64,000 nucleotides of DNA from Tribonema minus (taxonomy: Eukaryota; Sar; Xanthophyceae; Tribonematales; Tribonemataceae). The notes beneath the pieces are model-generated. The model had not been told where the DNA came from, made no database searches, and saw only the letters and a program-made list of their open reading frames with translations. Within the stretch, counting starts at the first letter, position 1. Each line of letters begins with the position of its first letter. Position numbers and translations under genes: made by a program. The stretch covers positions 372,001 through 436,000 of the forward strand of contig JAFCMP010000018.1 of assembly GCA_017506865.1 (NCBI GenBank), read 5' to 3'. This document shows, in pieces, positions 1 through 64,000 of this stretch.

Positions 1-3000
1 TAGAGCATCATAACGGGCGTGAGCAGGTCCTCCTTGCTGCACGGCGCCGCGCCGATGGCGAGGTCGCAGCGCGCCACCATGATCAGCGTGAACAGCGACA
101 CGAGGGTGAACGTGTGTCTGCGGCGGCGCAGAAAAGGGGGGAGGGGGGGGGGGCGGGGGGGAGGCGGGTTATTGCTAATGAGTGACCCGTTTTGCGACTG
201 CGGCTAGGCGGGTGCGGGGTGCTGGCACGCCAGGGGCTTGTGGAAAATGATGAGCGTGAACAGCGAGACGAGGGTGAACGTGTGCCTGTGGAGACGGCGG
301 CGGGGGGGGGGGGGGGGGGGGGGGGGGGGAGGAGCGAAGTATTGCTGATAAATGACAGCTCTGCTACTGCGGCTAGTTGAACGACGCGATGAGAGTGACC
401 TCTACACAGCCAAATCTCTTAGAGCGCAGTGGCCTTGACCACAGTGCTCTGAAGCAAAGAGTTGGGCCTTTTATGATGTCATCGACGTGCTCGCCGCGTG
501 ATCGCTGCGATTATGCGTGCCCACATGCACAACAGACTAAGTAGGCTGCTGCGTTGAAGCAAACTTTTCAATGGCATAGGCGGCCCGGCCTCCTTTGCGC
601 CTTTATAAATGAATACAAGTCCACAAGTACAGCGACATCCTGCGCCGGGTATCAGCACGTCGCATCGGCGTTGTCCTTTCAATCAACAAAGTTAGCACAC
701 CAATTATTCTTGTCGAGGTGCTGCTGCGTGCAGCTACGTCAGCAGACGTGTTGCGTTGAGTTAGGGTTTGGGTTAGGCTGATGTCCGCCCCTGACAGCGC
801 CAATGTGACGCAACAGAGCTGCCTCGCTTGTGTTTGCGGATGATCCTTGAACGCCTCACTCTCCGGTCAAAATGGCTCTGCAGCAATGGCATTGCCATAA
901 GTTGCAGCAGGCGCACTATGCAGCGCTTGCAACTTTATTACTTCGAAGTATTATTATCGAATGTTGCGCTGGAGTGGATGGCATAGCTGCTACAGCGGGT
1001 GCATCTTTTTTCACGGCCAACGAAGACACTGGCAAGTTGAGTTGGCGCATGGTGCCAATTCGGTGATCAACCCTCTGAGTCAGACACCAATGACAAATCA
1101 GCTGTGTCCATTGTGATGGGCTGCTGTCCCCTTAGTGGCCGCCGATGGTCTCCCCGTGTGTTTCTTTCTGTTGGAGCATATGGCAGTTACATGCTCATCG
1201 CCGTTTGCACACTTGACGGTTATGGCAGCTACACTTGCCGGCAGACAGACTACAATACATTCACTTCTAGCAGCACACGACAGGCGTCGGTCTTCTGTTG
1301 CGTTTGTCCCCTTGATGTCTAGCTCTGCGGGTGTGGTGCAACAGGGTAGCGAGCAACAGCTCTCTACGTTGCAACACTTTTACCTATGCTGCAGAGCCCT
1401 GCCTGCGCGTTATTTGGCGGTTTGTGGGTCACAGCCATTACTGGCAGGTCGCATCTGTCAGCAAGAAGTGGGCCAACACCTACAACCAAGAGCACGAGTC
1501 CACTCGCCTCAGCGGGAAGAGGAGCACGAGTCCACTCACCTCAGCAGAAATAGCAGCATCTGCCTATTCCCGCTGAGATGAGTGGACTCGGACTCCACTC
1601 AGACTTCTCACCTCAGCAGGATAGCAGACTCGTGCTCACCGTTGTAGCATCTGCTATTCCTGCTGAGGTGAGTGGACTCGTGCTCTTCGTTGTAGGTGTT
1701 GGCCCACTTCTTGCTCACAGATGCCACCTGCTAGTAATGGCCGTGACCTATAAACTGCCAAATGCAGCGTACTACGCGTTCAAGTCTGTTGCCCTCGCTT
1801 TGCAGACGCAGCTGCATGGGCCTTGCATGAATTACCATAAGATATACTGCTGCATAGGGATGTCGAGATTCTGTGAGAGAATGTGAGGGGAGGCCGGGGG
1901 GGGGGGGGTCAGCGGTACTCACACGCGCCAGAAGATGAAGATGATGTGTATCCATAACTGGCGTTCCACGGCCGTCTTGGAGAGTGCTCTGTTCGATGTT
2001 TTGAAGCACAACGCTTCACTTCCCTTCTCCTGAAGAAACACTCACCGCAGCGCCGGTGCGTTTCTCTCGTCCATTGCAATACTGATCGCTTTCACCACCC
2101 CCCGCCGCGCCGCCTGAGACGCTTACATAAAACTACGTACGGCAGGAACGAAAATCTGATGGTAGAACTCGCAGCATTCAAGTGCACGATCCTATTGAGG
2201 CTTTTTATCAGCAGGGGGGGAGGGGGGGGGGGGATCAGCGACACTCACACGTGCCAGAACACAATGCTCCACTGCCCCCCCTCCTGAAATTGACCTCAGC
2301 GCAGCGGCGGTGCTTTTTTCCCGTCACAATACCCCCCCCCCCCAATCAATCTCAGCGCAGCAGCAGGAAGGGGGTGATCATTCGCACTCACACGCGCCAG
2401 AAGATGAAGATGACGTGGATCCACGACTGTCGCTCCACGAACGTCTTGGAGAAGAAGGCGTCCTTGTTCTTGGTCACGAACGCCGTCTTCACGTCCAGCG
2501 TGAGGCAGCGCGCCTGCCAAAATGTCTCGTTGAAGTCGTCGTACTGCTTCACGGTCGAGTGGTCCACGACTTCATGGCCTGCATTGGCAAGCTAGGGGGG
2601 GCAGGGGGGGGTAGCGGAAGGGTGCAGGATGCGCTCGTGCTGAGTGTGATGAGCGTACGTGGAAGGCAAGGGAGCGTCACTCAAAGTTGAAGTTGTGCGC
2701 CTGCCAGAACGTCTCATTGAAATCGTCGTACTGCTTCACGGTGGAATGATTGACAACCTCATGGCCCGCGTTCGCGAGCTGGGGGGGGGGCAGCACAACG
2801 GTGCAGGGCCAGGGTTGGGGGTGGTGAGCTCGTGCTAGGTTTCTGTACGTAAGAAACGCGAGGGAGCGTCACTCAAAGTTGAAATAGTGTTCATCACGTC
2901 CAGCGCGAGGCAGCGCGCCTGCCAGAACGTCTCGTTGAAGTCGTCGTACTGCTTCACGGTCGAGTGGTCGACAACCTCGTGACCGGCGTTCGCGAGCTTT

Positions 3001-6000
3001 GGAGGGTAGCGCAAGGATGCAGGGACAGGGTTAGGGGTGGTCAGTGCGCTCGTGCGTAGTGTGATGAGCCCAGCTGCAAAAGGAGCGTCTCATTATTGAA
3101 GTTAACGTCTCGTTGAAGTCGTCGCACTGCTTCATGGTGGAGTGATCCACGACTTCATGGCCCGCATTGGCAAGCTGGGAGGGGAGCGAGGGGGGGGGGG
3201 GAGCGAAGGGCGGAGGGTCCGGGTTAGGGGTGCGCTCGTGCTGAGTGTGATGAGCGTACGTGAGAGGCGAGCGTCACTCAAAGTTGAAGTTGTGCGCCTG
3301 CCAGAACGTCTCGTTGGAGTCGTCGTACTGCTGACGGTCGAGTGATCCACAACTTCATGGCCCGCGTTGGCAAGCTGCGGGGCAAGCTGCGGGGGAGGGA
3401 CAACGTAACGGTGCAGGGTCAGGGGTAGGGGTGATTTGTGGGCTAGTGCTTGGTTTCTGTACGTAAGAAACTCAAGGGGGAGCGTTACATCAAAGTTGAA
3501 GTTGTGCGCCTGCCAGAACGTCTCGTTGAAGTCGTCGTACTGCTTCACGGTCAAGTGATCCACAACTTCATGGCCGGCGTTCGCAAGCTGGGAGGGGAGC
3601 CAGGGGAGGGGGGGGAGGGGGGGGGGGGGGGGGGGGGGCGCTAGGAGGGCATTACGGCGAGGGTTTACTGGTGACTGCATGTGAAGAGTGGGGGGGAGGG
3701 AAGGGGGGGGGGGTGGTCACGGTCAGGGTTTCGTACCTTTAGGGTTTGGCATAGGCCGCTGGTGAGTGCATGTGACGAGCCCAGCGGCGCGCTGCGCATG
3801 CGACACTCGGCGGAGGAGCGTCACATTGAAGTTGAAGTTATGGAGTGGTCAATGACCTCGTGGACCGCGTTCGCGAAGATTGTGTGTGTGAGCGGGGATT
3901 AAGTGAGCGTTCAGGGGAGTTGGCGCCTTAGGCAGACAGAACTTCATTCCCCTTCAACAGCCATGTCAGCTGAAAACTTCAACTTAACTCCATATCGTGC
4001 GCGCGACGTATGACGTCACCGAGGAGCGTGTTGAACACAATGGCCGGCACGTTACTAGCGCATAGATAACAACCAGCTCCAATGATGACACAACTTCGAT
4101 TTTATACATCTTTAACCTTGACATTCCATGAACCTGGTGTGGAGCGCATGACATCCCTCAAGGAACGCCATGGCCCGCACGTTGCCTGTTCGCATGCTGT
4201 CAACCAGCTTCAGCCGTGACACCACCCAACAACTTCAACATATTTTATCTTCGACTGTGACGGTTCACGCACCTGCAGCGCCAGGTCGTACGCGGGGCTT
4301 ACGACGTCCCCGAGGAACGTATTGAACACGATGCCCGTCACGTTGCCCGTGCGCATGATGCCCATCAACTTCAATAGTTTGTCTTCAACTGTGACATCCC
4401 ACGCACCTGCAGTGCCAGCAGGTCGTACGCGGGGCGTATGACGTCGCCGAGGAACGTGTTGAACACGATGCCCGTCACGTTGCCGGTGCGCATGACATCC
4501 ACCATCGCTTCAATTGCGCCACCAGCCAACTTCAACATATCAAATTTTCAACTGTGACATCCCACGCACCTGCAGCGCCAGCAGGTCGTACGCGGGGCGT
4601 ATGACGTCCCCGAGGAACGTGTTGAACACGATGCCCGTCACGTTGCCGGTGCGCATGACATCCACCATCGCTTCAATTGCGCCACCAGCCAACTTCAACA
4701 TATCAAATCTTCAACTGTGACATCCCACGCACCTGCAGCGCCAGCAGGTCGTACGCGGGGCGTATGACGTCCCCCAGGAACGTGTTGAACACGATGCCCG
4801 TGACGTTGCCGGTGCGCATGATGTCGACCAGCTGTTGCGACATCTTGTGGTAGAGCCATGCGAGGAACTCGGGGCAGAAGCGCATGTTGCTCGCCTCGCC
4901 CCAGATCAGCAGGTACAGTGCCACTGCGCCATGTGCGAGAAATTGCAGTGTTAGGATTAGGGCTAGTATTTAAACCATGACGTCATTAGAGAAGGCGCAA
5001 GTGAAATTTGTACTCTTGTTGAGCGCATGTTGCTGGCCTCGCCCGAGATGAGCAGGTACAGCGCCACTGCGGGGGCGCATAAGGAGCGCGCGGTGAATGC
5101 CGTCGTTAGAGCAGGTGCGTCTGACATCACCGCGGTGTCGATGGTGTGAGCGTCGTACACGTTCCGTACGCATCTCGGAAGAAGTGAAGCACAATCAACG
5201 TCAACAGCGCGACGCTGTCGGCGCCAAAAGGGTAGGGTTTGGGTTAGGGTTACAAAGCATGCATACAGGATACACCATAGGAACATGTAAGTGCAGCTAC
5301 ACTGTGCCCATCAAAATGCCACCAGTGGCCCATGCCTTCAAGAGCCACAGCAACCGCGCGCGGTGCTGATCGCACGTTGATGTTACGCACGCTCGCAGTT
5401 GGACTCGACTACATCACGCAATTATCTGACTTTCTTGAAGTTTTGCAATCTTCATCAAGCCGAACCTTCAAGGGCCGTGCCGGTGCCGGTTTCAGCCATA
5501 TCTTTGGTGTTGAGACAAGTCTACCATGCACCCTTCAAGCTGGTCTGGAACCGATGAAACTTTACTGAAGGTGATCTGAGCAGCAGCTGACCATTAAGGG
5601 CCGCGCCGGTGCCTTCTGTATTGTGATTCTGATGCACACTTCATGTCGAACTTTACTGAAGGTGATCTGAGTAACTGCTGACCTTCAAGGGCCGCGCCGG
5701 TGCTTTCTTCGACCCTGTCGATGGTGTTTAGATGAGTCTACGGTGCACCCTTCCAGTTGGTCTGGAGAGCTGACTCTGAATGCACACTTCAAGTTGAACT
5801 TGACTGACATCTGGAAGCAACCTGCGCAAAGGCTCACCTTCAGGGGCCGCGCCGGTTCCATGTTCATCGTGATTCTGATACACACTTCAAGTTAAACTGT
5901 ACTGAAGATCAGCAATGAATCTGAGTAACTGCTGACCTTCAAGGGCCGCGTCGGTGCCGTCTTCAACCCTGTCCATGGTGTAAAGACGAGTCTACGATGC

Positions 6001-9000
6001 ACCCTTCAAGTTAGTCTGGAGAGCTGACTCTGAATGCACATTTCAAGTTGAACTTGACTGATTTCTGGAAGCAACCTGCGCAAAGGCTCACCTCAGGGGC
6101 CGCGCCGGTGCCATCTTCATCGTGATTCTAATACACACTTCAAGTTGAACTGTACTGAAGGTCGGCAACTAATCTGAGCAACTGCTGACCTTCAAGGGCC
6201 GCGCCGGTGCCGTCTTCAACCCTATCCATGGTGTATAGACGAGTCTACGACGCACCCTTCAAGTTAGTCTGGAGAGCTGACTCTGAATGCACACTTCAAG
6301 TTGAACATGACGGATATCTGGAAGCAATCTGAGCAACCTCACCTTCAAGTGCTGCGCCGGTGCCGTCTTAAGTGTGATTCTGATATGAACTACAAGTTGA
6401 ACTGTACTGAGGATCGGAAATGGATCTGAGTAACTGCTGACCTTCAAGGGCCGCGCCTTGAGTTTGTCACACTTCAGGTTAAATTTGACTGCCAAAGCCC
6501 TCTTGAGATATACACTTCAGGTTGAAATTTATTGAAGTTTTGCGACCTTCAACAAGGCTCACCTTCAAGTGCCGCGCCGGTGCCGTCTTCATCATCCCCA
6601 AAGGGGCTCACGTACTGGCTGGCCTTGTCCTTGGAGTCCACCAATGAGTGCGGCGCGACGCCCATGAACTCGCACCACATGCTGCGCAGACCAGAGTGAT
6701 TCATGAATATGAGCAGGGTTAATTCCATGAATGAATGTGAGTCCACGAGCGAGTGCGGCGCGACGCCCATGAACTCGCACTACATGCTGCGCAGATGTAA
6801 GAGTTCATTCATGAACATGATCAGATTTCATTCATGAATGTGATTAGAGTTCACGATGAATGAAATATCCGCTTCGGAAGCGCGTGAGTGCGGCGCGACG
6901 CCCATAAACTCGCACCACATGCTGCGCGCACAGCAGAGTTATTCACGAACGCAATGAGAGTCCATTTATGAATGCGATCAGAGTTCATTCATGAACGTGA
7001 AGTTCACGGAAAGGGCGGTGCGACGCCCATGAATTCGCACCACATGCTGCGCACATCAGAGTTCATTCATGAACATGAGTTCATTCATGACCATGATCAG
7101 AGTTAATTCGCGAATCTAACCAGAATTCACCAAGAATGCGATGATCACCGCTTCGTAAGCGCGTGAGTGCGGCGAGAGGCCCATGAACTGAGCATCATGT
7201 GCTGCGCAGACCAGAATGCGTTCATGCACGTGATCAGAGTTCATTCATGCACATGATTGTCAGTCAAACTTCAATCCCAGCCCATGGGCACGAGTAATTG
7301 ATCCGATGCAGCATGGCGTTTCCCACACCGCTTCCGAAGCTCACGAGTGTGGCAATGCGGCACTGGAACGCACACTGGGGCGGGGGCATGCCGTGGCGTC
7401 TGCAGCACGCTCAGAGCACATGCAATCGCCCACAATGGCTGGCGCCTGGTGCTATTCGACGCTGTCGGAGACCTAACCCTAACCCTAACCCTAACCCTAA
7501 CCCTAAGCGCGCATCGATCAGGCGTACCTCTGCGCGTGCAGGGGGGAGCGCGTCGCCCACGTAATCCTAACCCTAACCCTAGCCCTGACCCCTGACCCCA
7601 GCCTGCCTAATCCCTAACCCCCATGCTATCCCTACTTTAACCCTACCCCTAGCCCTAACCCGAACCCTAACCCAAAGCGCGCACAACGCGCTGAGGCGCA
7701 GCGGACCGCCGCACAGCTACCTAGGGTTCAGGTTAGGGCACCGCGCACTCATCGGTAGGTGGACAGCGGCTCGTCGCGGTAGTTGCACAGCTTGAGCAGC
7801 GCCGCCGCATGCACGGCGCGGCCTAACCCTATTTCTAACCCTCACCCTCACCCCAACACTGACACTAACTTTGAAATCTAAAAAATAGATACCTATAATC
7901 ATGATTTGAAACCTTCACCAAAGAAGCACTCGCTGGTAGTTGGACAGCAGCTCGTCGCCGTAGTCGCGCAGCTTGAGCAGCGCCGCCGCCTGCACAGCGC
8001 CGCCGCCGCCTAACCCTAATCCTTGACCTAACTCTAACACCAACCCTAACCCTAAACCTCAGCGCACTCACTGGTAGTTGGACAGCAGCTCGTCGCGGTA
8101 GTCGCGCAGCTTCAGCAGCGCCGCCGCCTGCACAGCGCCGCCGCCGCCACCGCCCTGAAAGTCCAACACGCCACCGAGCGTGCCAGCGCCCACCATCTCG
8201 AGGCGCGTGAGGCGGCTCGCAAGAATGCCCTTGGCGTTGTCGAGCTGGCAGCGCACGTTGTCGGGCTGGAAGCCGAAGACGAGGGCTAGGAGTTCGAAGG
8301 CGTTCGCCTCGGTGTCGCCGTTCGCGCCCTTGAGCGCCGCGCGCAGCGCCGCGATGTACTCTTTGCCCTTGCTGCGCCGGTGGCAAAAGGGGACACAGAA
8401 GGGCGGGTGAGTACGAATCGCGCACTTGAAAGTTGCAGTGGCGGTCTGTCGCTGGCAAAGAGCGCAAGGCGTTGGCCTCGGTGTCGCCGTTGGCGCCCTT
8501 GAGCGCCGCGCACAGCGCCGAAATGTACTCTTTGCCCTTGCTGCGCGCGCAAAAGGTGATACAGAGGGACGGAAGCGCAGTGTGTCAAAACAAATTGCGC
8601 ACTTCAAAGTTGCAGTAGCGGTCTGTCGCTGGCAAAGAGCTCGAAGGCGTTGGCGTCGGCGTCGCCGTTGGCGCCCTTGCTCGCAGACGAATTTTTGACA
8701 CTTTGCACTGCCTCCGCAGCCATCTGGCGGGCAGTGTGCATAGATTAGATTAGGGTTAGGGTTAGGGTAAGGTAACCTGACCTAGGGGTAGGGGTAGGGT
8801 TAGGGTTAGGTCACCTAACCTAGGTTACCTAACCCTAACCCTACCCCTACCCCTACCCCTAACCCTAACCCTAACCCACTGTCACCGCCATGCCACCGCT
8901 GGCATCACGGCATCGCCTGACAGTCAGACACACAGCTCTGCGCATCTGCCAGAACTGTGCTAGCAGAGAGCTAGTTTTGTGTCACAAAGCACGTGCTGGC

Positions 9001-10680: not shown

Positions 10681-10689
10681 CTACGTAAG

Positions 10690-15530: not shown

Positions 15531-15539
15531 ATATTTTGT

Positions 15540-16394: not shown

Positions 16395-16399
16395 CTGCA

Positions 16400-36600: not shown

Positions 36601-37773
36601 ACGACGCGACGGGCACACCTGCGTGCCTGACGCTGCCGGGCGGCGCGGCGTGTCCCTTCGAGGACATATTCTACGATGTACTGGGCACGCCTACGTGTCT
36701 CGACGTCGGCGCCGACGACTGCCTGAGCGTTGCCTTCGTCGCGGGCAACCCGCTGTGCATGGCGTGCGAGCGCGACGACGTGTTCTACGGTGAGTCAGGG
36801 TTAAGTGTTGGGGTCAGGAGCAAGCCAATCGGCCTACCTACGTCGCTGCCGCAGGCGAGGGGGCGGCGCCCGTCGCCGTCGCCCTATCCCTAACACTAAC
36901 CCTAACCCTAACCCTTGCCCAGTTTGAACAGCACAGGCAGGCAAGCTCTCGACGCCACGTCACGGTGCAATTGACCCTAACCCTAGTCCTAACCCTAACC
37001 CTAACGCTAACCCTAACCTTAACTCTAACCCCAACCCAGTTCGAACAGTAAGCCCTCGCTGCCACGTGCGATTGCTCTTCGGCGTGCACGTCAACTGCCA
37101 TTGTGCTTGTCTCCGCTGTACATACCTGCCTGCCTTTGCTGCATGATCACATGTACCCACCGCCGCCGCAGGCGAGGGCGCGGTGCCCGACTGCCTCGCG
37201 TTTGGCGCGGGGCACCGCAGTTGACAGGTACCCCCCGAAAGTCAGTCGCACGTGGCAACAAGAGCGTAACTACCCTTGCTGTCAAACCTCACCATACATA
37301 CCTACCTATTGCTGCCGCTGCAGGCGAGGGCGCGGTGCCCGTCTGCCTGGCGCTCGGCGCCGACGGATGCCTGAGCATCGCGTGGTATCCAAGCTTGCCT
37401 AACCCTAACCCGAACCCTGACCCCAACCCTTGCTGCCGCACCTCACCATACATACCTACCTATTGCTGCCGCTGCAGGCGAGGGCGCGGTGCCCGTCTGC
37501 GCTCGGCGCCGACGGATGCCTGAGCATCGCGTGGTGCCCACGCTTGCCAATCCTAACCCTAACCCTGACCCCAACCCTTGCTGTTGCACCTCACCATACA
37601 TACCTACCTATATCGCTGCCGCTGCAGGCGAGGGCGCAGTGCCCGTTTGCCTCGCGCTCGGCGCCGATGGCTGCCTGAGCATCGCGTGGTACGGCACGCG
37701 CCCCATCTGTCTGCCGTGCATGCCTGAGGACACGCAGTACGGGCCCAGCGGTTTCCCGAGCTGCAAGCAGTGA
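33664..37773 (+). CDS. Secreted cysteine-rich repeat protein, unknown family, complete
   Basis: Four exons join in phase: 33664-33814, 35520-35559, 36581-36789 and 37628-37773, giving 181 residues plus TGA. Residues 1-17 (MFARLLTLGLLAGTAAA) form a typical signal peptide. The mature chain is built from about seven imperfect units of 15-26 residues: a Pro-x-Cys-Leu core, a short spacer often with another Cys, then acidic residues and an aromatic pair. Examples are KPVCVDPCKVEDVAW, GEPVCLQTGQDKI, TPTCLDVGADDCLSVAF, NPLCMACERDDVFYG, VPVCLALGADGCLSIAWYG and RPICLPCMPEDTQYG. The protein ends FPSCKQ. The Cys pairing suggests a disulphide-stabilised extracellular or wall protein, but I recognise no family. 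Exon 2 is the only one of five similar copies (34.93-35.56 kb) that keeps both splice sites and the correct phase. Copies of the exon 4 start precede it, and copies of its end, stop codon included, follow it. Confidence 0.75.
34930..35450 (+). repeat. Upstream junction copies of exon 2, Cys-repeat gene
   Basis: Four copies of the start of exon 35520-35559 (EPVCLQT) with an ACAG-type acceptor lie near 34929, 35121, 35230 and 35362, embedded in a repeated upstream context (CTCACAGTGTCGACTGCGCT). In all four, telomeric sequence begins at or near the exon position CTCCAGAC: TTAGGG orientation in the first, CCCTAA orientation in the others. Confidence 0.9.
35560..36580 (+). repeat. Intron 2 of Cys-repeat gene: TTAGGG tract and junction copy
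   Basis: A TTAGGG tract with ACAGAGAG interruptions lies at 36022-36085. C runs follow at 36120-36210. A diverged copy of the exon 3 start (CTCCAAGGCCTCC...) lies near 36390-36440 after a CCGCCGCTG tract. Confidence 0.75.
36790..37627 (+). repeat. Upstream junction copies of exon 4, Cys-repeat gene
   Basis: Copies of the exon 4 start (GEGAVPVCLALGADGCLSIAW) with GCCGCAG or GCTGCAG acceptors begin near 36855 (poor), 37172, 37325 and 37478. Each is preceded by CATACATACCTACC and separated from the next by CCCTAA-type tracts (36885-36920, 36973-37038, 37400-37430, 37548-37580). Confidence 0.93.
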
Positions 37774-43789: not shown

Positions 43790-46700
43790 ATGGCGGCTCG
43801 CGTGTATGATGTTCTGGTGCTGGGCGCAAGCGGGTTCACTGGCATTCAGGTGTGCCTACACCTGGCCAAGTGCACTCCGCCTCTCAGATGGGCCGCAGCA
43901 GGCAGGAGCAAAGCCAGATTGCAGGTGAGAACGGGCACTGTTTCTCTCGATTGTACAAACTCTCAAGCTTGATTCATGTACTTCTTCACTCAGACTCTTG
44001 AATTGCAGCGCGCTGCACTGCAGTCGTCGCAGTTGCTGGTGGGAGAGCCAAGTCGATCACGTTTGCCTATGATGGTGGTGGAACTGTGATCCTGCATGCT
44101 GCAGTGAGCTTGTGAGCTATGATATGTCAATTCGCATTATGCTGCGCACTCTGGCTGCACGAGTGCCGGTGGGAGCCACTTCAACGACCTAGGTGCCTCG
44201 CGCAGTGCTGCTGCCCATGCCGGCTGCTAGTAGTCTGCATTCATGATTCTGTCCACGTTGATAGCTAAGCTATCACATCAAGAACTTGATTGAAGGCTTT
44301 CTGCAGCTAACGTAACTCATTTATCGCTCGAATACTATTTCAAGAACTACGCTTACAGAAGCACTAATGGCAAGAAGCAGCGGGCGAGCGATACGTGCTC
44401 TGCTCTTGACGGCATTGCAGCAGAAGATGTCTTCCAAACATACCGCATGCGCCATCCAGCGGAAGTTGCAATTGATCACGTCAGCAGTGAGCGGAGGACG
44501 ATGCCCCTCAACTTCAACTTCAATCGTTGTGCGATGAGCTCCGCTCATGCGACGGTTTGACACATGCTGCTCTTGCACTTCAAGCGGTGCATCATGAACT
44601 GCGATTCCATCACACTCATGTGTGGAGTACCGGCTCACCCGTTAACTTCTACTCATACTTCAAGTAAAGTGCCATGAACTCCGATCACGACACAATGGTG
44701 TGTTGAGTACCGGCTCACCAATCTACGCAATGACGTCGATCACGACAGCAGTGAGCCGATCATGATGATCATGATGTACTCGAGGCCCCGTGCGAACATT
44801 TGATTCACTTTCCAAAGTTGAGAGGAGGAAACAGCCTCACTTCGATCTACTGTACACGCCTTCAAGTACACAATTACATGTAAAATTATGCCTCGATGCT
44901 ACAAAGCTTGCACACAGAAGTCTTTTGACTACTGTGGATATGATGGCATTGTTTGACTCGTGGCCGATGCCCGCAGCAGCGGCCACCACGGGTGTTTAGT
45001 GGAAGGCACTTGCGGCTATCCACGCCTCGTCACCTAGAGCTCAACGATTTTTTGACTCGTTTTCATAGTACCAAGTGCTGCAACAGCAGAATGAGAGCGC
45101 TGCAACATTGATGAGAGCGCTGCGGCATCAGTTGATGACGACAACAGTGAGCAGGACGACGATGCCCCTTAACTTCAACTCATGCTGCAAGCGTTGTGTG
45201 CCATGAACTCCGATGACGTCTTCTTGGTTCATTGAGCATCGGCTCAGCCATCTACGCAATGCTCGTCTGGATGAGCTTCAATCGTGTGATGATGAGACAT
45301 GCTGCTCTTACACCTCAAGCGGTGTGTCATGAATTCCTCCCCGTCGCAATCGTGTTTTGAGCACTGGCTCACCAATCTACGCAATGCTCGTCTGCAGGAG
45401 CTTGTGGTGGATAGGCTCGCAGCGGAGGGGGGCGCGAATATGCCGCAGGACGTCATACAGGTGCACCATCAGAGCGCGCTGTAGCATGCCTCAGTAAACA
45501 GTGAACTGCCGGGAGTGCCCAGGTTTGTGGCAGTTCATGACTGCCGGTATAGGTAGTCGTGTCTGACGAGCAAACATGCCGCAGGATGTCATACAGGTTC
45601 GCTTTGAGGCATGCTTTTAGAAGTAGAGTGAACTGCCAGGGGTGCCCAGGTTTGTGGCAGTTCATGACTACTAGTATGTTCCGTGTCTGATGAGCAAACA
45701 TGCCGCAGGACGTCATTCATACAGGTACGCTTGCGGAGCGCTTTGAGCATGTGCTTTGAAACTAAAGTGAACGCTGAACTGCCGAGGGTGCACAGCTCTG
45801 CGGCAATTCGCGGCAGGACGTCATACAGGTGCGCGAGCGGAGCGCGCTGTATGAGTCACAGCATGCCTCAGTAAACAGTGAATTGCCAAGGGTGCCCAGG
45901 TATACAGGTGCGCGAGCGCTGCGCTTTGAGGCATATGCTTTTGAAAAAGTAAACAGTGAACTACCGAGGGCGCCCAGGTTTTTGGCAGTTCACAACTGCC
46001 AGTATGTTCCGTCTTTGATGAGCAGAGGCGATCACGAGAGGTGCGGGAGATGCAGGCACTTAGGGTTAGGGTTGCGGTTAGGGTTAGGGTTAGGGTTACT
46101 CGACAAGGACGCACGGGTTTATGGCAGTTCAGAGCGGCTGTCGCCTGCCTGTTTGCTAAGCAAAAGCAATCGTTACAACAACAAAGAACATATGTCATGA
46201 GAGGTGCGGGAGGCACGCAGGCGCTCGGCGCACTTCTCTCTACAGGCAGGTCACTGGCGAATCAATCACGTATGCTCTGCGGACGCTGGCATTTCTGTCA
46301 CCATTCCTTGTTGCTGCCTGCCACCGTGCTGCTATCTGAGGTGCTTAAGGCCTTGTGCAATGATGGTGGATAACCAGGCCGCGCGCAGGCTAAGGGAGGG
46401 CCTTCGCCTGAATTTTGCAGATCAAAGCTGTCCACAGTATTTCTTACAGTGACCATCCACAACCAGCATGTCGTAGGCACCACATCAGTTATCATGTTAC
46501 GACACCGTGACACATAACATTCCTCGCTTCTTGTATAGTCCAATACAGGTGGACATTCCAGGACGCGGACGGGCGCAGGGGATAGATAGCCTTTACCTGT
46601 TTTCTGCTGGTTGAAGCTGTCCATACCCATACTGCAAACCTGATGCTGCTGCAGGCGCAGTGACCACCAATGACCAGCTGGTCATGGTCCCCACGTCACA

Positions 46701-47741
46701 ATAACAGTGACACATGATACTCCTCGCAACTTATCTACTATTGGCAAAAGGCACTTGCGGCTCACCATCCCTTATCACCTACTTAAGAGCTCTACGATCT
46801 TTTGATTCGTTTTCATCTATACAGGTGGACATTCAGGATGCAGACGGCCTCAGGGAGAGCCTCGCAAAGTCGCGTCTGTGCATGAACTGCACGGGACCGT
46901 ACCGATTTCTGGGCGAGCCTGTGGTGGCGGCGGCGGTAGGTAAGTTGCCTCCATTGTCATGCTTACTTTATTTTTAGTACATAGCCAGGTGAACATATGC
47001 CTACCCTTGATCATGCTTTTGATTTTATTCTTGGGCGAGAGCCTGTCGTGGTAGGTAAGCTGCCTCCATTGTCTTACTCACATACCGGTGAACATGTAAC
47101 TCCCCTCAATCACAATTTAGAATTTGCGTAGGGCCGCCGTACCGATTCATGAGCGAGCCTGTGGTGGTTGGTAAGCTGCCTCCACTGTCTTGCTTACATA
47201 CCGAGGTGCACATATACCTACCCTCAATCAATTTGAACTGCACGGGGTTGTACCGATTTTGGGCGAGCCTGTGGTGGCAGCGGCGGTAGCGGCGGCGGTA
47301 GGTAAGCTGCCTCCTTTGTCTTGCTTACATACCCTAGGTGAACATGTACCTAACCTCAATCATGCCTTTGAATTCATTTTTGGGCGAGCCTTGTGGTGGT
47401 AGGTAAGCTGCCTCGTTTGTCTTGCTTACGTACCCCAGGTGAACATATACCTACTCTGAACTCATGTTGTTGAATTTGTGTAGTGCCGGCGCACCAATCT
47501 GTGTGCGAGCCTGTGGTGCTGAACACGTATACTTACCTACCCTCCAATGATACGTAACTGTTCGGGCTGTACCAATCTCTGGAGGGGCTGTGGCGTCGCC
47601 ATACTATTTGACTCGTGGCCAATTGCTGCAGCATCGGCGACCACAGTTATTGGTGGAAGGCACTTGCGGCTAACCATCCCTTGTCGCCTAGAGCTCTACG
47701 ATCTTTTGATTCGTTTTCATCCATGTAGGCAACTGACGACC

Positions 47742-47785
<44 letters not shown>

Positions 47786-49022
47786 GCCGCTGCTGCTGCT
47801 ACGCCAGATGCGGGCTGCCACTACATTGACCTGTGCGGCGAGCCGGAATTTATCACGCGCATGAAGCTCAAGTTCCACGCCAAAGTACGTATGCATGGAC
47901 GTCACGCGCACTTCAAGTGATGAGTACTTCAAGTGACGCTCATTGCCACTTGGCCTAAGGGTGTAGGGTAAGCATCAGGCCAGATCTGGGGTAAGTCGCG
48001 CGGGGCATTGCACGTGCAACCCTAACCCCAACCCTTATCCTGAGCCAAATCCTAAGGAGCGCACACTGGAGATCCCACAACGCAGGTGAGAACGAGGCTA
48101 AACTTGGCTGTAGCTCTGACCGCCAACCATAATTAATTGCAGCAGCCGTTGCGCACCGCACGGGGAGCATATTCAACGAGTGACCTGTCGTTACAAAAAA
48201 CAACAACAGCGTGGTCTTGCATAGAGTCAGGGATAGGGTTAGGCAAGGGCTATGGTTGAGGTTAGGTGGTGGGGTTTGCTGTCTGCAGCGCCATGTAGGT
48301 ATGTAGGTATGCTTGTGCTGGCATCCCTGCAGGTGGATGGCGAACCAATATGGTGCCTTCCAGGTGCTCGCTTGTTTCTTCCTGATGTGTGTTGTTTGCG
48401 TAAGATCGCCAGGCCGCATTGGAACTCCCCGATAGGCATCAGTTGGGGTTAAAAAGAAGGGTCAGGTCTAGGGTCAGGGATACAATTAGGGTTAGGATAA
48501 GGGCTAGGATTGGGGTTAGGGTGCGTTTGAGCCTCAAAGCTTCACAATGAGACTGCCGAGGGCTTGCGACACGGTGATGAGGGTTAGGGTTAGGGTTAGG
48601 GCGAGCTCGCCTGCAATCATGGTCAATCATGGCGCGGCGGTCGCATAAATGGGTTGGGTTAGGGTTAGGCTTCAGTTTTTGGCGTACACACCATCTGAGA
48701 ATGCTATGCTTTAACTGCTGCTGCTGCTGCTGTCGCTGCGATGGTGATGCTCAGGCGGAGGACAAGCACGTGCATTGCATGCCCATCCATCTTTACCTCT
48801 TCGCGTGCACACTACCTGAGCATGCAAGTCTTCTACTGGTGCTGCTGCTGCTCTGATACTGCTGGCGCTGCTGCCGCCGCCGCTGCTGCTGCCGCCGCTG
48901 CTGCTGCTGCTGCTGCCGCCGCTGCTGTGATGGCAATGCTCAGGTGGAGGAGAAGCGCGTGCATTGCATGCCCATTCATCTTCACCTCTTGCATGCACAC
49001 CACCTGAGTACGCAAGTCTTCC

Positions 49023-49063
<41 letters not shown>

Positions 49064-52000
49064 TGCTCTGCTGCTGCCGCCGCTGCTGCCGCTGCGATGG
49101 CAACGCTCAGGCGGAGGAGAAGCGCGTGCCCTAACCCTGCCCTCGCCTGTAATAATGGTCACGCATTGTGTGGCAGGCGAGGCGGGGCTTGCAATGCATG
49201 CCCATTCACCTTCAGCTCTTGCCGTACGCACCACCCTTGCCCAACTCTGAGCACGCGGGTCTTCCTCTGCTGCTGCTGCTTCTGCTGCCGCCGCTGCTGC
49301 TGCCGACGCTTCAATGGCAACGCTCAGGCGGAGGAAAAGCGCGTGCTGGTCCTGCACTCGTGCGCCTTTGACTCCGTGCCTGCAGACCTGGGCGTACTGT
49401 ACGCCGCGCAGCAGTTCACCGCACGCACGCCCGGTGGCGTGTGCAGTAGCGTCGAGTCATTCCTCACGCTGCACACTGGGCCCGCAGGTGAGGAGTGACG
49501 ACGAGGGGGGGAGGGGGGGATCAGGGTTAGGGTTGGGGTTAGGGTTAGGGTTAGGGTCCGGGTTACCCTGAGTTCAATGCACGCACGCCCAGCGGCGTCT
49601 GCAGCAGCGTTGAGTCCTTCCTCACGCTGCACACGGCGCCCCCAGGTGAGAGCGACGCTGTGGGGGGGGGGGGGGGGCGGGGGGCGATAGGGGGGTTAGG
49701 GTTAGAGTTACTCTGACTTCAACGAGCGCATGCCCGGCGGCGTCTGCAGCAGCGTCGAGTCGTTCCTCACGCTGCACACGGGGCCTGCAGGTCAGAAGTG
49801 ACGACGGGAGGGGCGAGGGCGGGGGGGCGGGGGGGGGGAGGGTGAATTGTCCCGCTAAGCGCTGCTGCTTAAGCGCCGTGCCAGCCGTGGCAGGCCAGCA
49901 GTTCAGTTTGTGCGTTGTCGGTGCTGCGCCTTCGAGCGCCGCTGGCTGAGCAACGCCGCTGGGATCGTACGGCACTACTGCACATGCATGTGGGCCCCTG
50001 CAGCCATGCAATCGTGGCGCGCTAACCAACTCCTAGCCCACAGTCGGCGATGGTCAGCCCGTCGCGCCGGCGCCGCTGAGCACGAGGCGCTCAGCTGATT
50101 GAGCGCTGCTGCGTGCATGGCATTCCGCGCATACGGGCTGCGATTTCTGCATGCCGCGGCGTGCAGTCAGGTAGCAATGACGGCCCGTGCACGCGCCGGT
50201 TCACCCATGGAGGAGCGCGTCGCGACGGTTTCGTCGTGAACTTGAACATGGTGCGCTCTGCGTGCGGCGCTCGCGATCCGCACTTGCGCGCGGGTGCACG
50301 CGCGCGCGTGTGGCTAGCGGAAGTTTAACTTGTGACGCTCCATGCGATGCGCGTGTGCAAGGCCTCGCTCGGCGCACGAGTCCGCCGTGCACATGCATGC
50401 TCATGAAATGGCTATGTGAATCAGACACGCATCATTCACATTGCATCACCGTGCGTGCGCGTGCAGGCCTCGGCGGGCACGCGACGACGTACGAGTCCCG
50501 CCGTGCACATGCATGCTCGCAAGTTCAACCTGTGACACTCCGCATGTGACACTTACATCGTGCACATGCGCGCGTGTGCAGGCATCGGCGGACACGCGAC
50601 GATATCTGAGTCCCTCACGTGCAGGTTCAACCTGTGACGCCCCGCAAGCGACGCCCCCACACATTCTCGCGAGATCGACATGTGCCTCCCGCACACATCT
50701 GCGCATGACTTCAACATGCAACTTCAACACAAAACTTCAACATGTGACACTCACATCATGTGTGTGCGTGCAGGCCTCGGCGGACATGCGACGACGTACG
50801 AGTCCGCAGTGCACGGGTTCGGCGCGGTGGAGGATCTGCGGCGCTTGCGCAAGGAGCTCGCAGCTAAATTCCCGCCCCCGCAAGGTGAGCGCGCACGCAG
50901 TTTCAAGTTGAAGTTGAAGAAAATAAGTCGTACGTACGGTCATATCACCCCAGAGTGGGGTGTAAACTCCCATTTGCGTTTGCAGGGAGGTACCCCGTAC
51001 GCACCATATCCATAGCTTGAGCCATCATATCGTACTCCGCCGGCGGTTGCGCATGTTACTTCAAGTGGTACTTCAAGTAATACAATTCCTTGATTTCAAT
51101 GTAGGCTGCGCAAGGAGCTCACAGCTGAATTCCCACCCCCGCAAGGTGAGCGCGCGCGTAGACGTCGATGCGTCGGTGTCATCGCACGCCGCTGTGACGT
51201 GTGCCGCTGTCAACGCAGTTGATCTGCTGTGCAAAGGGAATCCTTCTGATTCCGTTTCTCGGTGTTTCTGCTAAGCCGCATGCCCTTTTCAGCAAACCTG
51301 TTGTCAGCGTGGGCTGTTGTTTCACATCATGCGAGCTCTGCCGATCTGCTCATTTCAGTGCCCTACATCCACTGCTTTTGGGGGGTCCCTCGCCTCACCC
51401 CGGCTTCCTCGTATGAAGCTTGCACACATAAGCCTTTTTGACTAGTGGATACGGTGGTACTGTTTGACTCGTGGCCAACTGCTGCAGCAGCGGCGACCAC
51501 GGTAATTGGTGGAAGGCTCGTGCGGCTAACCATCCCTTGTCACCTAGAGCTCTACGATCTTTTGGTTTGTTTTCATATTGTACTCGTGCGGCGCTGCGCA
51601 AGGAGCTTGCGGCAAAGTTCCCACCCCCGCAAGGCGAGCGCGCACGCAGCGGTGGATGTGCTGCTGTCAACGCAACGTGCACAGCATCTGTTGTCAGAGC
51701 ATTCCGTTGTTCTACGTCGTGCGAGCTCCGCCAATCTGCAGAATTAGGGTGAGGGGTAGGGTTGGGGTTAGGGTTAGGGCTACGGTTAGGGTTAGGGTTT
51801 CATCGCCCGCATCGACCTCGACATTGTAACCCCTGCATGGCTGGCTTCGGGAACAGTCCCTCGCCCCCTTTCCCTGGGGGTCAATGAACGGGCTTCCTCA
51901 TCTTTTTTTGTACTTGTTGTTGTTGGCTGAGCGCCTGGGCCCACGACTGTGCGCACGCGACGGCCCGCAACTGCATGCTCAACTTCAACTCTGATGCCGG

Positions 52001-55000
52001 TCCCGCTTGTCGTTTGCTGAGCGCTTGGGCTCGCACCGGCACGCCTGCAATGGCCTGTACTTCAACTTCAAGTCTGATGCCCATTAATCCTGCTGTCATT
52101 TGGTGAGCGCTGCTGCTCATGCAGTGCCGCGCGCGTGGGTCCACGCTCGCAGCCGCCCCTGCATGCTCAACTTCAACTCTGATGCCTGTCGCGCTCGCAT
52201 TTGCTGAGCACTTGGGCCCACGCATGCTTGCGCGTGACAGCCCGTACTTCAACTTCAACTCTGTTGCCCGTCGCGTTCTCATCTGCTGAGCGCTGCTGCT
52301 TTTGCAGTGCCACGCGCATGGGCCCACACTTTCGCACGTGCGACGGCCCTAGTTCAACGCGCTCTTGTTTGTAGAGCGCTGCAGCGCCGCGCGTGGGCTC
52401 GCACGACGGCCCGTACTGCATGTTCAACTTCAACTCTGATGCGATGCCCATAAATGCTGCTCTGTTTGCTGAGCGCGTGAGCCCGCGGCTGCATCCTCAC
52501 CTTATGCTCTGATGAGATGCCCATTACCTGTGCTCTCATTTGCTGAGCACTGCAGTGCCGTGCGTGGGTCCGCGGTTGCGCGTGCGCGACGGCCCGTACT
52601 TCAGCTTAAACTCTGATCTTCAACATCAACTATGATGATTCAACTTCAAATCCGATGCTCTCGTTTGCTGAGTGCTGCAGTGCCGTGCGTGGGCCCGCGG
52701 CTGCGCGCGCGCGACGGCCCGTGCTTCAACTTCAACTCTGATGCTTCAACTCTGATGCTTCAACTCTAATGCTCTCATTTGCTGAGCACTGCGGTGCGTG
52801 GGCCTGCGGCTTTGCGCGCACGACGGCCCGTACTTCAACTTCAACTCTATGTGCTTCAACTTCAACTCTGATGCTCTCGTTTGCTGAGCGCTGCAGTGCC
52901 ACGCGTGGGCCCGCGGCTGTGCGCGCGCGACGGCCCGTACTACGAGGGCCATCCCGCAGTTCAGGCGCACGCGTTCAAGTTCCCGGGTGCGGACGCCGCC
53001 GTCGTGCGGGTGAGCACTACCGCAGCGCGATGGCTGGTATTAGTGCAGTTCATGCGGAAAGAAGACACATCCTGCTGCAGCCATGTTTCCCGCCTGTTGG
53101 GGGTAGAGTCAGGGTTGCTCGCCACGCTTCCATCCGAAAGACTGACAAGGGGTGTAGAGAGTCGCCTCATTGGTGTCTGCCGCGCGTGCCTGCTGTTGTT
53201 GGCGCAAGTGCTCAAACACGCTTCGAAGTCGGAGCTCATGTACCGTAGTGCTGTCCCCGTCGTGCATGCCCCATTCTGCTATGTCAGGTTCGGGAACATG
53301 CACGCAGTGACGTCCGAGCTCATGTGGGTACACTGTACCCCTCATGCATGCCGTCTCAGCTGTCTGTGGCATGCCTGCTTCTTTTCTTCTGTTGCGCTGG
53401 AACCCAAAACTGTACTACAGATGTGTGCATAAAGTCACTCTTTCTGAAGTGCGAGCTTACGTATAACTACCCCTCGTGCGTGCGCAATGTGCGATGTCAG
53501 ATGTCGCAAGAGGCCCTCGCGGATCGCGGCCTGGAGCCCGGCATGTTCCCGCACTACGGAGGTACGTGCACCTTTTACTACCTGAAGTAGTTCTCGCTTA
53601 GGGCGCAAAAAAAAAAAAAAGATGGTAGATGTCCAGCGAGTGAGTGTATTTCTTATCAGTTCCTGCTTGGCATGTTTGCAGGTAAGTCTGCGCGTCTCAA
53701 CAACTTGCGTTGCCTTGATCAGGACACGACAATCGCCTTCCGCCACGCTGCTGAACACACACAGCGAGAAATGTACCTCATTGAATTTTCAGAGGTTTGT
53801 CCTAGATTCTGCTGCGGGAAGCACAGCCAACAACGGGCAACAAGCAAAGCAGCCAGTCGTCTCGCAGCACCGCGTTCCGTTCGCTTCCATATGTGTGTGC
53901 CCGCACAAGTGCAGCGGCAACATCGCTTTGTCTCAACTGCGCGCATTGCTCAACCGCTCTCTCGCTGCCGCCTGCGCGCAGCGTACTTCACGGTCCCAAG
54001 CGCCGCTGCGGCGGGGCACTTTGTGCTGTTCACATCATTTTCTTGTGACCCTCGCTTTAGCGCCCTCGAACGTAGGCAGCCAAACTCACTGCTGTAACTG
54101 CTCAACTGCTCTCCCGCTGCCTCTGCCTCTCTCGCGCGCGCAGCGTACTTCACGGTGCCGAGCGCTGCTGCGGCGGGGCTGTTTGTGCTGTTTGGGGGAA
54201 CGTTCTCGCTGCTGAGCGGTTCCGCGTGGGGCCGCAGCCTCCTGTTGAAGTACCCCGCCCTCTTCACCAAGGTGCTTGAAGTTGATGGAAACGAATCAAA
54301 AGATTGTAGAGCTCTAGATGACAAGGTGTGGTCAGTCGCCAGCGCCTTCCTGCCACCGATAATCGTGGTCGCCGCTGCTGCTGCAGTTGGCCTCCAGTAC
54401 GCCTCCTCACCAAGGTACTCGAGTTTACGATTTATTGCGTTCGTTCCGCATAGGAGGGCATCTTTCAACTGTGCCTACCAGCTGTCGCCTCTGCTGCAGC
54501 TGTGCCTGATGCGCGTTGGCTGCCTGTCAGCACGAGGTGTGATTTGGCGCACTCCCGGCTTCCCCCAAGGGCTCGCAAAAAGGACCCATCGTACGCCTGG
54601 TCCCCTTTCAAAGTTCGGTACAGTACGATAGTACAACGTACAGTTGACCGCTCGTACAGCGTCCCCAATGGCGTCAAGCTTCTGTGGCTATCATATGCAG
54701 ACTTAGGCTGATGATGCATCTGTCCGCGTGGCGTGCTGAGATCGCATCATACGGCAACTTCACTTTCAGATTGACACTCCACGGTGCCCGTCGCAGCGGA
54801 CCTCCAGTTTGACACTACGCGCGGAGCGCTGCGTTCGCATTGAGGTGCATGCAGCACAGCAACGCGACTTACTTCACCCCCCCCCCCCCCCCCCCCCAAA
54901 AAAAACGTTTGCCGCAGGGCGTCTTCACGCACGAGGGCCCGTCGCCGCAGCAGCTGGCGGAGACCTCGTTCACCATGAAGCTCATCGCACGCGGCTACAG

Positions 55001-55487
55001 CGCCGCCGCCGCCGCCGCCGCTGCCGCCGCCGCCGCCCCCGCTGCCGCCGCCGCCGCTGCCCCCGCTGCCGCCGCCGCTGCCGCCCCTACCCCAGCCTCA
55101 GCCAGCGACCCCGAAGCAGGCAGCGGCGCTGCCGCTGCCGCTGCAGACATGCCGAGCGCTGGTGCAGCAACACAGCTGATCAGTGCTGCGGCGCCGCCGC
55201 CCGACGCCGCCGTCGTGTGCGCCGTCTCAGGGCCGGAGCCGGGCTACGTCGCGACGCCGCTGATCTTTATTGCGGTCGCGCGCACGCTGCTGGAGGAGCG
55301 CGGAGCGCTGCCGCGCGCGGGGGGGGTGTTCACGCCCGCGGGGGCTCTTTGGGGGTCGGGGATCATAGGGCGGTTGGGGGATGCGGGGGTTAAGTTTGAG
55401 GTGGTGGAGGAGGGCGGCGGCGAAGGGGAAGCGGGGGGTGGGGGGGAAGCGGGGGGGGCGGCGGGGGAGGGGGGCAGTGCCGCATAG
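43790..55487 (+). CDS. SCCPDH: Saccharopine-dehydrogenase-like oxidoreductase (SCCPDH family), complete
   Basis: This is a Rossmann-fold, NAD(P)-binding protein of the lipid-droplet and trans-acting-enoyl-reductase-like group; substrates of the eukaryotic members are not settled. Ten exons: 43790-43924, 45398-45460, 46825-46939, 47808-47884, 49328-49487, 50774-50884, 52897-53009, 53501-53561, 54144-54271 and 54918-55487. They total 1,533 nt (510 residues), all junctions in phase. Motifs: GASGFTG at residues 12-18 (dinucleotide loop), WAAAGRS, NCTGPYRFLGEPV near 87-99, YIDLCGEPEF, CAFDSVPADLGV near 142-153, SVESFLTLHTGP, AVHGFG, VPRVGPRL, a hydrophobic stretch near 285-305, GYVATPL and AGGVFTPAGALWG. 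This order matches human SCCPDH (429 residues). The extra length comes mainly from an Ala/Pro run in the last exon (about 55.00-55.20 kb) and a Gly/Glu-rich C-terminus. A TGTAA sequence lies about 20 bp after the stop. Introns consist largely of junction copies. Confidence 0.93.
43925..45397 (+). repeat. SCCPDH intron 1: upstream copies and introner-like element
   Basis: Repeated versions of the context preceding exon 2 (CTACGCAATGCTCGTCTG, CTCACCAATCTACGCAATG, CAAGCGGTGTGTCATGAA) lie near 44570-44650, 44700-44740, 45150-45260 and 45290-45390. The introner-like element lies at 44905-45066. Confidence 0.8.
44905..45066 (+). mobile_element. Introner-like dispersed element, full-length copy
   Basis: Consensus features in order: AGCTTGCACACA, CTTTTGACTA.TGGATA, TTTGACTCGTGGCC, CTGCAGCAGCGGCGACCACGG, GGTGGAAGGCACTTGCGGCT, CACCTAGAGCTCTACGATC, TTTTGATTCGTTTTCAT. 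Other copies: 46740-46816, 47594-47720 and 51417-51576 (plus), 54283-54398 and 62476-62592 (minus). All six lie inside introns. Confidence 0.85.
45461..46824 (+). repeat. SCCPDH intron 2: downstream copies of exon 2
   Basis: Four copies of the exon 2 end (ATGCCGCAGGACGTCATACAG) with a GT donor lie near 45575, 45700, 45808 and 45897 (the last two partial). They are interleaved with repeated CCAGGTTTGTGGCAGTTCA sequence. A TTAGGG tract lies at 46058-46098. A truncated introner-like element (46740-46816) ends 8 bp before the exon 3 acceptor junction. Confidence 0.88.
46940..47807 (+). repeat. SCCPDH intron 3: downstream copies of exon 3
   Basis: Five copies of the exon 3 end (GGGCGAGCCTGTGGTGG followed by GTAGGTAAGCTGCC) lie near 47030-47060, 47150-47180, 47255-47312, 47383-47410 and 47500-47515. 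An introner-like element sits at 47594-47720, and a CTG repeat (47739-47800) serves as the pyrimidine tract before exon 4. Confidence 0.9.
47885..49327 (+). repeat. SCCPDH intron 4: upstream copies of exon 5 and CTG tracts
   Basis: Three copies of the exon 5 start (GCTCAGGCGGAGGAGAAGCG, encoding AEEKRV) lie near 48748, 48949 and 49108. Each follows a CTG/CCG tract, as in the real exon (tracts 48714-48735, 48838-48930, 49027-49098, 49266-49310). TTAGGG tracts lie at 48475-48610 and 48655. Confidence 0.9.
49488..50773 (+). repeat. SCCPDH intron 5 junction copies
   Basis: Two copies of the exon 5 end (ARTPSGVCSSVESFLTLHT with GCAG/GTGAG) lie at 49573-49648 and 49718-49793, each beside G runs and TTAGGG tracts. 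Three copies of the exon 6 start (GLGGHATTYES) with GTGCAG-type acceptors lie at 50350-50402, 50460-50518 and 50575-50625. Confidence 0.92.
50885..52896 (+). repeat. SCCPDH intron 6 junction copies
   Basis: Two copies of the exon 6 end (RKELTAEFPPPQ with GTGAGC or GCGAGC) lie at 51103-51150 and 51592-51640; an introner-like element (51417-51576) precedes the second, and a TTAGGG tract follows at 51745-51805. About nine copies of the exon 7 start (CTGCAGTGCCGCGCGTGGGC to GACGGCCCGTAC) lie between 51920 and 52860. Each switches after CGTAC to ACTTCAACTTCAACTCTGATG. Confidence 0.93.
51417..51576 (+). mobile_element. Introner-like dispersed element, full-length copy
   Basis: It shares both ends with the copy at 44905-45066 (about 85% identity by eye) and directly precedes a junction copy of SCCPDH exon 6. 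Confidence 0.85.
53010..54917 (+). repeat. SCCPDH introns 7-9: sparse junction copies
   Basis: A copy of the exon 9 start (YFTVPSAAAAG with GCGCAG acceptor) lies at 53965-54045. A short copy of its end (CTCACCAAGGTACT) lies near 54408. A reverse-orientation introner-like element (54283-54398) starts about 11 bp after the exon 9 donor. C run and A run at 54880-54906 precede exon 10. Confidence 0.82.
54283..54398 (-). mobile_element. Introner-like dispersed element, reverse copy
   Basis: The reverse complement of the element's 3' two-thirds (ATGGAAACGAATCAAAAGAT onward). It starts just inside SCCPDH intron 9. Confidence 0.8.
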
Positions 55488-61988: not shown

Positions 61989-62065
61989 TTCTACAGGCCG
62001 TAGAACAGGTCAGCAGGGGCGTCCGCCAGCGCAGCGATCCTCGTGTCCGTGACTGGCGCGCTGTA

Positions 62066-63454: not shown

Positions 63455-64000
63455 CTGCAAGCACGCGTGGAGAAGGAATGGCTCGGTCACATCGATGGTG
63501 GCATTGATTAAGAAAAAGTTACACTCAACGCCGATGCTTTCTCTCAACGCTGACACGCGTGCGCGGTGATTGGGAGCTGAGCCGTGCAATGATGCAGCGC
63601 ACATGCACAACTTCGTGAACTCAAGTGCCGCAGCAGTCTGTTGTGAGGCCGAGCCACTTGCATATGCAGCGCGCTCTGACCTGCAACAGCTCCTGTGCAT
63701 CTGACCACCTGCCACAAAGCTGGAAGCGAGGTTCTGAATGGGCACTGAAAAGTGTTCAAATCTGTGGGTGATTGCGGCCGCAACAGCGCCACATGCAAGG
63801 CGGCACTAAGCGTTATAGATCGACTCTGCTTTGGACGCTTCCAGGATAGTCAGCAAGGACATAGTAAGTACCCAGGAAGAAGACAGTTTCACCTCACGTG
63901 CGGCAGAGGTGGCTTCGTGGCCCGCCTTCATCACCTTGCAGCAAGCACCAGGGCAGGAAACCATGACAGCAACACACGATCAACGCACACATGTATCTAT
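63455..64000. other. Upstream of paralogue A, right edge
   Basis: The missing signal-peptide exon is expected here or beyond the edge. Minus-strand ATGs near 63.9 kb lead to short frames with GTGATG or GTGAGG donors, but none resembles the first exon of paralogue B. Confidence 0.4.

Follow-up and report, generated by a model that had tools for sequence, protein, structure and literature searches.

Introns of four Tribonema minus genes contain tandem copies of their adjoining exon edges and splice sites

Introduction

Tandemly duplicated mutually exclusive exons are whole exons that carry both splice sites and are under coding constraint. The AGGT model describes intron gain by head-to-tail genomic duplication, in which a duplicated exonic AGGT segment provides the new intron with both of its splice sites. 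In potato, a single tandem duplication over an intron-exon boundary created a new intron together with extra exon sequence and changed the mRNA, the splice signals being inherited from the parent junction (PMC4974935). Introners are a process that adds intron sequence genome-wide in algae, and they form dispersed families (PMC9860276). Fill-in by CST-Pol alpha at breaks gives rise to tandem duplications that are short (<100 bp) in the cases described (PMC8355091).

The introns described in this report share features with these systems. As in genes with mutually exclusive exons, exon-derived tandem copies lie within introns, but here the copies are half-exons and the changes private to single copies are frame-blind. 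Tandem duplication and inherited splice signals are shared with the potato event; here, however, introns lengthen, the form of the mRNA is kept and many copies are present at most junctions. Head-to-tail genomic duplication is found as in the AGGT model. Intron gain by that model is nevertheless rejected, because the copies span an existing junction and carry one exon edge and one splice site, and it is existing introns that lengthen. In contrast to introners, the copies have the neighbouring exon as their source and remain confined to one locus. CST-Pol alpha fill-in could supply founding duplications, although here most units lie 134-189 nt from each other and have been amplified repeatedly. 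In the openly licensed papers searched no description of such a junction-copy pattern was found, and the nearest case is the single potato event (PMC4974935).

Results

Gene models in the window

The window analyzed is C18:372001-436000, a stretch of 64,000 nucleotides, and the genome searched is the 158.2-Mb assembly of 554 contigs. Four genes with 26 introns in total were modelled with GT-AG, phase-consistent introns. The CUL4 gene (18461..32118, plus strand) has 11 exons and 10 introns and matches the Pfam families Cullin and Cullin_Nedd8. The FKS1-type glucan synthase gene (1..8371, minus strand; FKS1_dom1) is modelled with five exons and its left end lies beyond the window. The SCCPDH-like gene (43790..55487, plus strand; Sacchrp_dh_NADP) has 10 exons and 9 introns, and the Cys-rich gene (33664..37773, plus strand) has 4 exons and 3 introns. 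The Cys-rich protein has no Pfam match, whereas the other three modelled genes are supported by Pfam. Scans with Rfam (gathering threshold) and ARAGORN gave no matches, nor did a plasmid search with one 6-kb piece.

When CUL4 is spliced via the outermost copies, the C-terminal 433 residues are 99% identical to the transcript-derived EukProt protein P0001 (98% query coverage), which comes from another strain or a near species. The next-best CUL4 identities are 63-66%, in brown algae and Heterosigma. A plain tblastn search with CUL4 also matches short inner copies, some of which match as well as the true exon over 24-33 residues; the support thus rests on the whole spliced protein. Transcript-derived support of this kind is confined to CUL4. 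The nearest homologues of SCCPDH are from brown algae (≤55%), with Phaeothamnion at 48-51%, and in an alignment with four homologues the model shows no long private insertions where exons join. No near-identical SCCPDH transcript protein is among the matches listed, for which the best ~8000 word-sharing candidates were scored.

Introns contain copies of their own exon edges

From each exon the terminal 45 nt at the end or the start served as query against the exon's own intron, and a match was accepted if its score exceeded the 99th percentile obtained with 250 shuffled comparisons. Copies of exon edges are present in 21 of the 26 introns of the four modelled genes, 16 being positive on the donor side and 19 on the acceptor side, with 101 copies altogether (47 donor-side, 54 acceptor-side). 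Positive are CUL4 introns 1-7, 9 and 10, SCCPDH introns 2-6 and 8, glucan synthase introns 1-4 and introns 1 and 3 of the Cys-rich gene. No exon-edge copies were detected in SCCPDH introns 1, 7 and 9, CUL4 intron 8 and intron 2 of the Cys-rich gene. Also searched, one intron per gene, were X1 (57005-58363) and X2 (62271-63338), two similar minus-strand genes with a single long intron apiece, and an HTH_21-domain gene (intron at 15826-16223, minus strand); none of these introns shows an exon-edge copy.

The presence of direct tandem copies of exon edges, together with their splice sites, is confirmed for introns of all four modelled genes. Exon edges compared with other introns are positive in 10 of 1300 cases and antisense comparisons in 0 of 52. 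Exon starts searched in the downstream intron and exon ends in the upstream intron gave no copy (0/17 each, 0/34 in total), against 15/17 and 13/17, respectively, on the proper sides. Queries from the middle of exons are positive in 1/17 cases upstream and 5/17 downstream. In all 14 introns that contain both kinds, donor-side copies precede acceptor-side copies.

A sequence-only reading of the window had described this order, and had placed the pattern in every well-resolved gene. The order is borne out, while the generality is reduced by the five negative introns and by X1, X2 and the HTH_21 gene. Its assignments to CUL4 introns 1-6, 9 and 10 and to all glucan synthase introns are correct, intron 7 of CUL4 being a further case. 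Of SCCPDH introns 1-6, which it had also named, intron 1 lacks detectable copies, as does intron 2 of the Cys-rich gene, which it had included without distinction.

Anatomy of the arrays

Each copy consists of an exon part with a median length of 57 nt on the donor side and 46 nt on the acceptor side, to which intron sequence is added. On the intron side, likeness remains higher than random over 60 nt or more. The spacing of copies has a median of 158 nt with quartiles of 134 and 189 nt (100 spacings). Exon parts differ from the exon by about 10%. None of the 101 copies exceeds 80% of its own exon and none combines a near-complete exon with both splice sites; the copies are half-exons with one splice site. 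The splice dinucleotide is retained in 38 of 47 donor-side and 44 of 54 acceptor-side copies.

In CUL4 (plus strand), the end of exon 3 and its 5' splice site recur in intron 3 as five donor-side copies (21240..21870), intron 4 contains four donor-side copies (22693..23263), and the start of exon 6 with its 3' splice site recurs in intron 5 as five acceptor-side copies (24886..25571). Intron 6 has five donor-side copies, which repeat the end of exon 6 (26067..27042). The four acceptor-side copies of intron 10 (31223..31779) show a higher-order period of two units and 345 bp. In the glucan synthase gene (minus strand), two donor-side and four acceptor-side copies are found in intron 1 (6742..7978), eight donor-side copies with a two-unit higher-order period of 253 bp in intron 2 (5466..6369), and four donor-side and five acceptor-side copies in intron 3 (2734..4614). 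On the plus strand, SCCPDH intron 3 has four donor-side copies (47137..47518), SCCPDH intron 6 has two donor-side and eight acceptor-side copies (51107..52840, right end approximate) and intron 3 of the Cys-rich gene has three acceptor-side copies (37172..37515). The two-unit periods run against a simple placement of one copy at a time.

Behind the stop codon of the Cys-rich gene, where there is no splice junction, the end of the coding sequence is present in two further copies (37774-37841 and 37844-37896, plus strand). A splice site is therefore not required for duplication.

Array spans cover 19,038 of the 32,506 intron bases of the four genes, and intron length correlates with copy number (rho 0.62, 26 introns). 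Among 60-nt tiles, 81% of those in array spans have a relative within 600 bp, compared with 16% in the remainder of the same introns, 23.5% in the five echo-less introns (those without exon-edge copies) and 10% outside the four modelled genes. Echo-less introns and the DNA that surrounds the modelled genes contain local repeats as well (8 and 15 clusters, respectively). Together with the copies behind the stop codon, the repeats in echo-less introns indicate that duplication is not strictly bound to splice junctions.

The exon-side breakpoint is common to the copies of an array (ICC 0.77, permutation maximum 0.38; 25 arrays, 91 copies). The window also contains 53 TTAGGG/CCCTAA-type runs of at least 10 nt, where 0.45 are expected from shuffles; 37 are intronic, 16 lie outside modelled genes and none is exonic. 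They perhaps result from telomerase acting at breaks. Telomeric tracts are not put forward as marks of the breakpoints; they occur at 14 of 69 exon-side flanks versus 12.4% in the control and at 1 of 69 on the splice-site side.

The sequence-only reading had stated that copies decay with distance from the exon. As a rule this does not hold: the rank correlation within arrays is negative in 9 of 18 cases (mean -0.05). Pooled over arrays, distance and similarity are correlated on the donor side (rho -0.31, p 0.03) and not on the acceptor side (0.04, p 0.77). When copies are compared with each other, exon parts show more likeness than intron parts in 23 of 24 arrays, which speaks against a simple unit model. 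The size of this gap is uncertain, because copies were picked by their likeness to the exon and intron parts are rich in indels. These two effects explain part of it, and exon-restricted conversion may account for the remainder.

The coding exon is the recurrent template

In 100 copies, mismatches to the exon number 114, 96 and 332 at codon positions 1, 2 and 3 (1816, 1815 and 1809 sites, respectively). The third position is the most mismatched one in 33 of 35 arrays. Gap-free copies with at least 40 nt of exon have mismatch values of 0.056, 0.051 and 0.177, and the intron parts, put in the same register, of 0.149, 0.160 and 0.153.

Changes were sorted at 845 sites covered by at least three copies. 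Those private to a single copy are distributed over the codon positions as 50:47:60, those common to some copies as 12:6:40, and sites at which the exon is unlike all copies as 1:0:10. Private changes are thus frame-blind, whereas changes between groups of copies are mostly synonymous, from which it follows that the latter occurred in the coding exon itself, after one copy had been made and before the next. A net frameshift is present in 24 of 100 copies, and 3 of 68 gap-free copies contain in-frame stops.

At codon positions 1 and 2, 19 of 116 changed sites are shared (0.164). Simulations give 0.10 (0.047-0.173) for a star-like genealogy and 0.55 (0.379-0.697) if copies are made from copies. 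The observed fraction fits the star and not the copy-of-copy genealogy, so the copies mainly derive from the exon-bearing unit. This star-like genealogy and the shared changes at third positions show that the coding exon itself is the recurrent template and that the copies are unselected snapshots of it. As in concerted evolution with the exon as donor, the copies resemble the exon-bearing unit instead of falling into copy-of-copy lineages.

Divergence is 0.173 in intron parts, 0.183 at third positions and 0.058 at positions 1 and 2. Relative to the latter, the ratio is 2.99 (2.38-3.61) for intron parts and 3.16 (2.43-4.05) for third positions. A copy that became non-coding on splitting from the resident exon is expected to give a ratio of ~2, or up to ~2.5 for third positions, since the private rate there is 1.24 times higher. 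The excess hints at copies derived in part from other alleles, although the lower limits are near the bound and intron parts may mutate faster.

Copies beyond the window

Outside the window, exons of two protein families, cullin and MCM, were located by profile match. Copies accompany 22 of 33 of them, with 29 copies on the acceptor side and 29 on the donor side. Controls are positive in 3/56 cases on the wrong side and in 13/274 on other contigs, a number to which MCM paralogues may contribute. Mismatches by codon position are 0.063, 0.044 and 0.147. Four MCM matches (L049, L052, L053 and L055) were taken to be copies themselves, because their profile ranges overlap those of neighbours, and were dropped, which leaves 18 of 29 exons positive. 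With additional cullin exons, the final set has 27 of 42 positive exons in nine cullin and MCM genes. All exons are positive in the genes on contigs C77 (8/8), C357 (5/5) and C445 (4/4), and most are on C1 (4/5) and C156 (3/4). Few are in the two MCM genes on C146 (1/3 each) and the cullin gene on C528 (1/6), and none in the MCM gene on C334 (0/4). Genes on other contigs hence carry the copies too, and the proposal that introns grow by repeated junction duplication is not limited to one gene; its genome-wide form fails at genes with few or no copies, such as that on C334.

The tile measure is 0.56 in the C77 cullin piece, 0.38 in the C357 cullin piece and 0.51 in the piece left of the window. 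It is 0.09 for the C528 cullin and 0.02-0.22 in twelve further pieces of 10 kb, of which C18 contributes two. The presence of copies is not clearly predicted by GC3 (rho 0.20, p 0.08, 74 exons).

Paralogues of the glucan synthase on C18, C98, C334 and C533 are of very different sizes at a near-equal profile range. By the positions of profile matches, the paralogue on C18 extends over ~28.0 kb, the one on C98 over ~13.7 kb and the one on C334 over ~8.0 kb; growth of the introns in the window gene would produce such a difference.

Splice sites within the copies

Of the copied sites, 35 of 45 donors and 46 of 53 acceptors reach at least the 10th percentile of the scores of real sites; among intronic dinucleotides as a whole, 5.3% of GTs and 34% of AGs do so. 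In CUL4, the model built from the outermost sites matches P0001 although comparable inner sites lie alongside. Exon definition, which would favour the first donor and the last acceptor of an intron, would explain this choice.

Other repeats in the window

A dispersed element of ~120 bp is present in both orientations at 44944-45067, 46748-46816, 47607-47720, 51455-51577 and 62478-62585 (minus strand), with a shorter match at 54296-54314 (minus strand). Its copies lie in SCCPDH introns and outside genes. In the genome, 40 scored matches from 2133 candidates are 95-100% identical. A 19-base piece of it has exact matches in one IMG/VR contig and two Rhizobiales contigs, which is taken as chance. 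A short repeat in both orientations (40760-40801, 62330-62371 and 62389-62427; 87-88% identical) is perhaps a small inverted-repeat element. An open frame of 449 codons (60432-61781), of which the piece tested has no Pfam match, lies within 60231-61988 between two direct repeats of ~170 bp that are 85% identical. This region is perhaps a mobile element.

Discussion

The arrays are probably the product of tandem duplications that span exon-intron junctions, are amplified with the exon as master unit and are tolerated because splicing uses the exon-adjacent sites. A tandem duplication of ~100-230 bp would first span the junction, and the unit, consisting of exon edge, splice site and some intron, would then multiply head to tail. 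The unit joined to the exon body would stay coding, while the remaining units would be intronic and decay without selection. New copies would arise mainly from the exon-bearing unit rather than from older copies, so that the exon is the conserved master and the intron holds snapshots of its past states. The founding duplication would set the unit and amplification would retain its breakpoints. A duplication inside an exon harms the protein and one that is spliced out is spared, which is why introns would grow from their junctions.

The founding duplications may stem from the repair of staggered breaks. For amplification, unequal exchange or exon-to-copy gene conversion, perhaps between homologous chromosomes, is favoured by the star-like copies, the common breakpoints and the lack of distance order. 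The sequence-only reading had proposed a distinct mutational process or repair pathway; ordinary break repair could found the arrays, and unequal exchange or gene conversion could amplify them. The genes with few or no copies and the lack of distance order, which simple repeated duplication next to the exon would create, count against the master-unit account. So do the greater likeness of exon parts in comparisons between copies, the copies behind the stop codon and the repeats in echo-less introns.

A stronger version is more tentative. It holds that a standing process bound to junctions, with the coding exon edge as master template, writes copies of this edge into the adjoining intron, that intron length is the balance between this process and decay, and that copies stem in part from other alleles through unequal exchange with the homologue. 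The copies from other alleles would then be the reason why unconstrained sites diverge about three times as much as constrained ones. The introns of such genes would be archives of their own exons.

Random tandem duplication everywhere, with removal of hits in exons and survival of those at junctions, would need neither a tie to junctions nor a template. The duplicated coding end behind the stop codon and the local repeats in echo-less introns and outside genes speak for it, and short ancestral introns would make most tolerated duplications reach a junction. However, tiles with relatives are concentrated in the junction arrays (81%, against 16% in intron interiors and 10% elsewhere) and are scarce in other pieces of the genome. 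Growth from copies of copies would also be expected, and the shared fraction lies far below the simulated range for it. We therefore consider this explanation unlikely.

Less likely still is a fresh duplication of the junction for each copy, laid down beside the exon so that distance equals age. It would account for the star-like genealogy, the shared third-position changes and the donor-side correlation. It conflicts with the even split of array correlations, the missing order on the acceptor side, the common breakpoints and the two-unit periods.

It is very improbable that the copies are alternative or regulated exons, whether of the cassette or the mutually exclusive type. Many copies have intact splice sites and in-frame stops are rare, but a complete exon with both sites was not found among the copies, and frame-blind private changes and frequent frameshifts show that coding constraint is lacking. 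An assembly artefact is equally improbable: copy numbers may be wrong in places, but the divergence of the exon parts, the frame-structured differences and the recurrence on several contigs argue against it. Least probable of all are introners or another mobile element. The dispersed ~120-bp element, partly located in SCCPDH introns, speaks for them; against them stand exon edges that rarely match other introns and a CUL4 unit (intron 5 array) whose genome-wide matches all lie in its own array (6/6).

The arrays constitute a natural splicing experiment, with several near-perfect decoys per junction and use of the exon-adjacent site where this can be tested. Over half of the intron sequence of the four genes lies in arrays seeded by exons, which is a route to long introns. 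Because the copies are snapshots of coding sequence within one genome, synonymous change and the birth of copies can be read from a single assembly.
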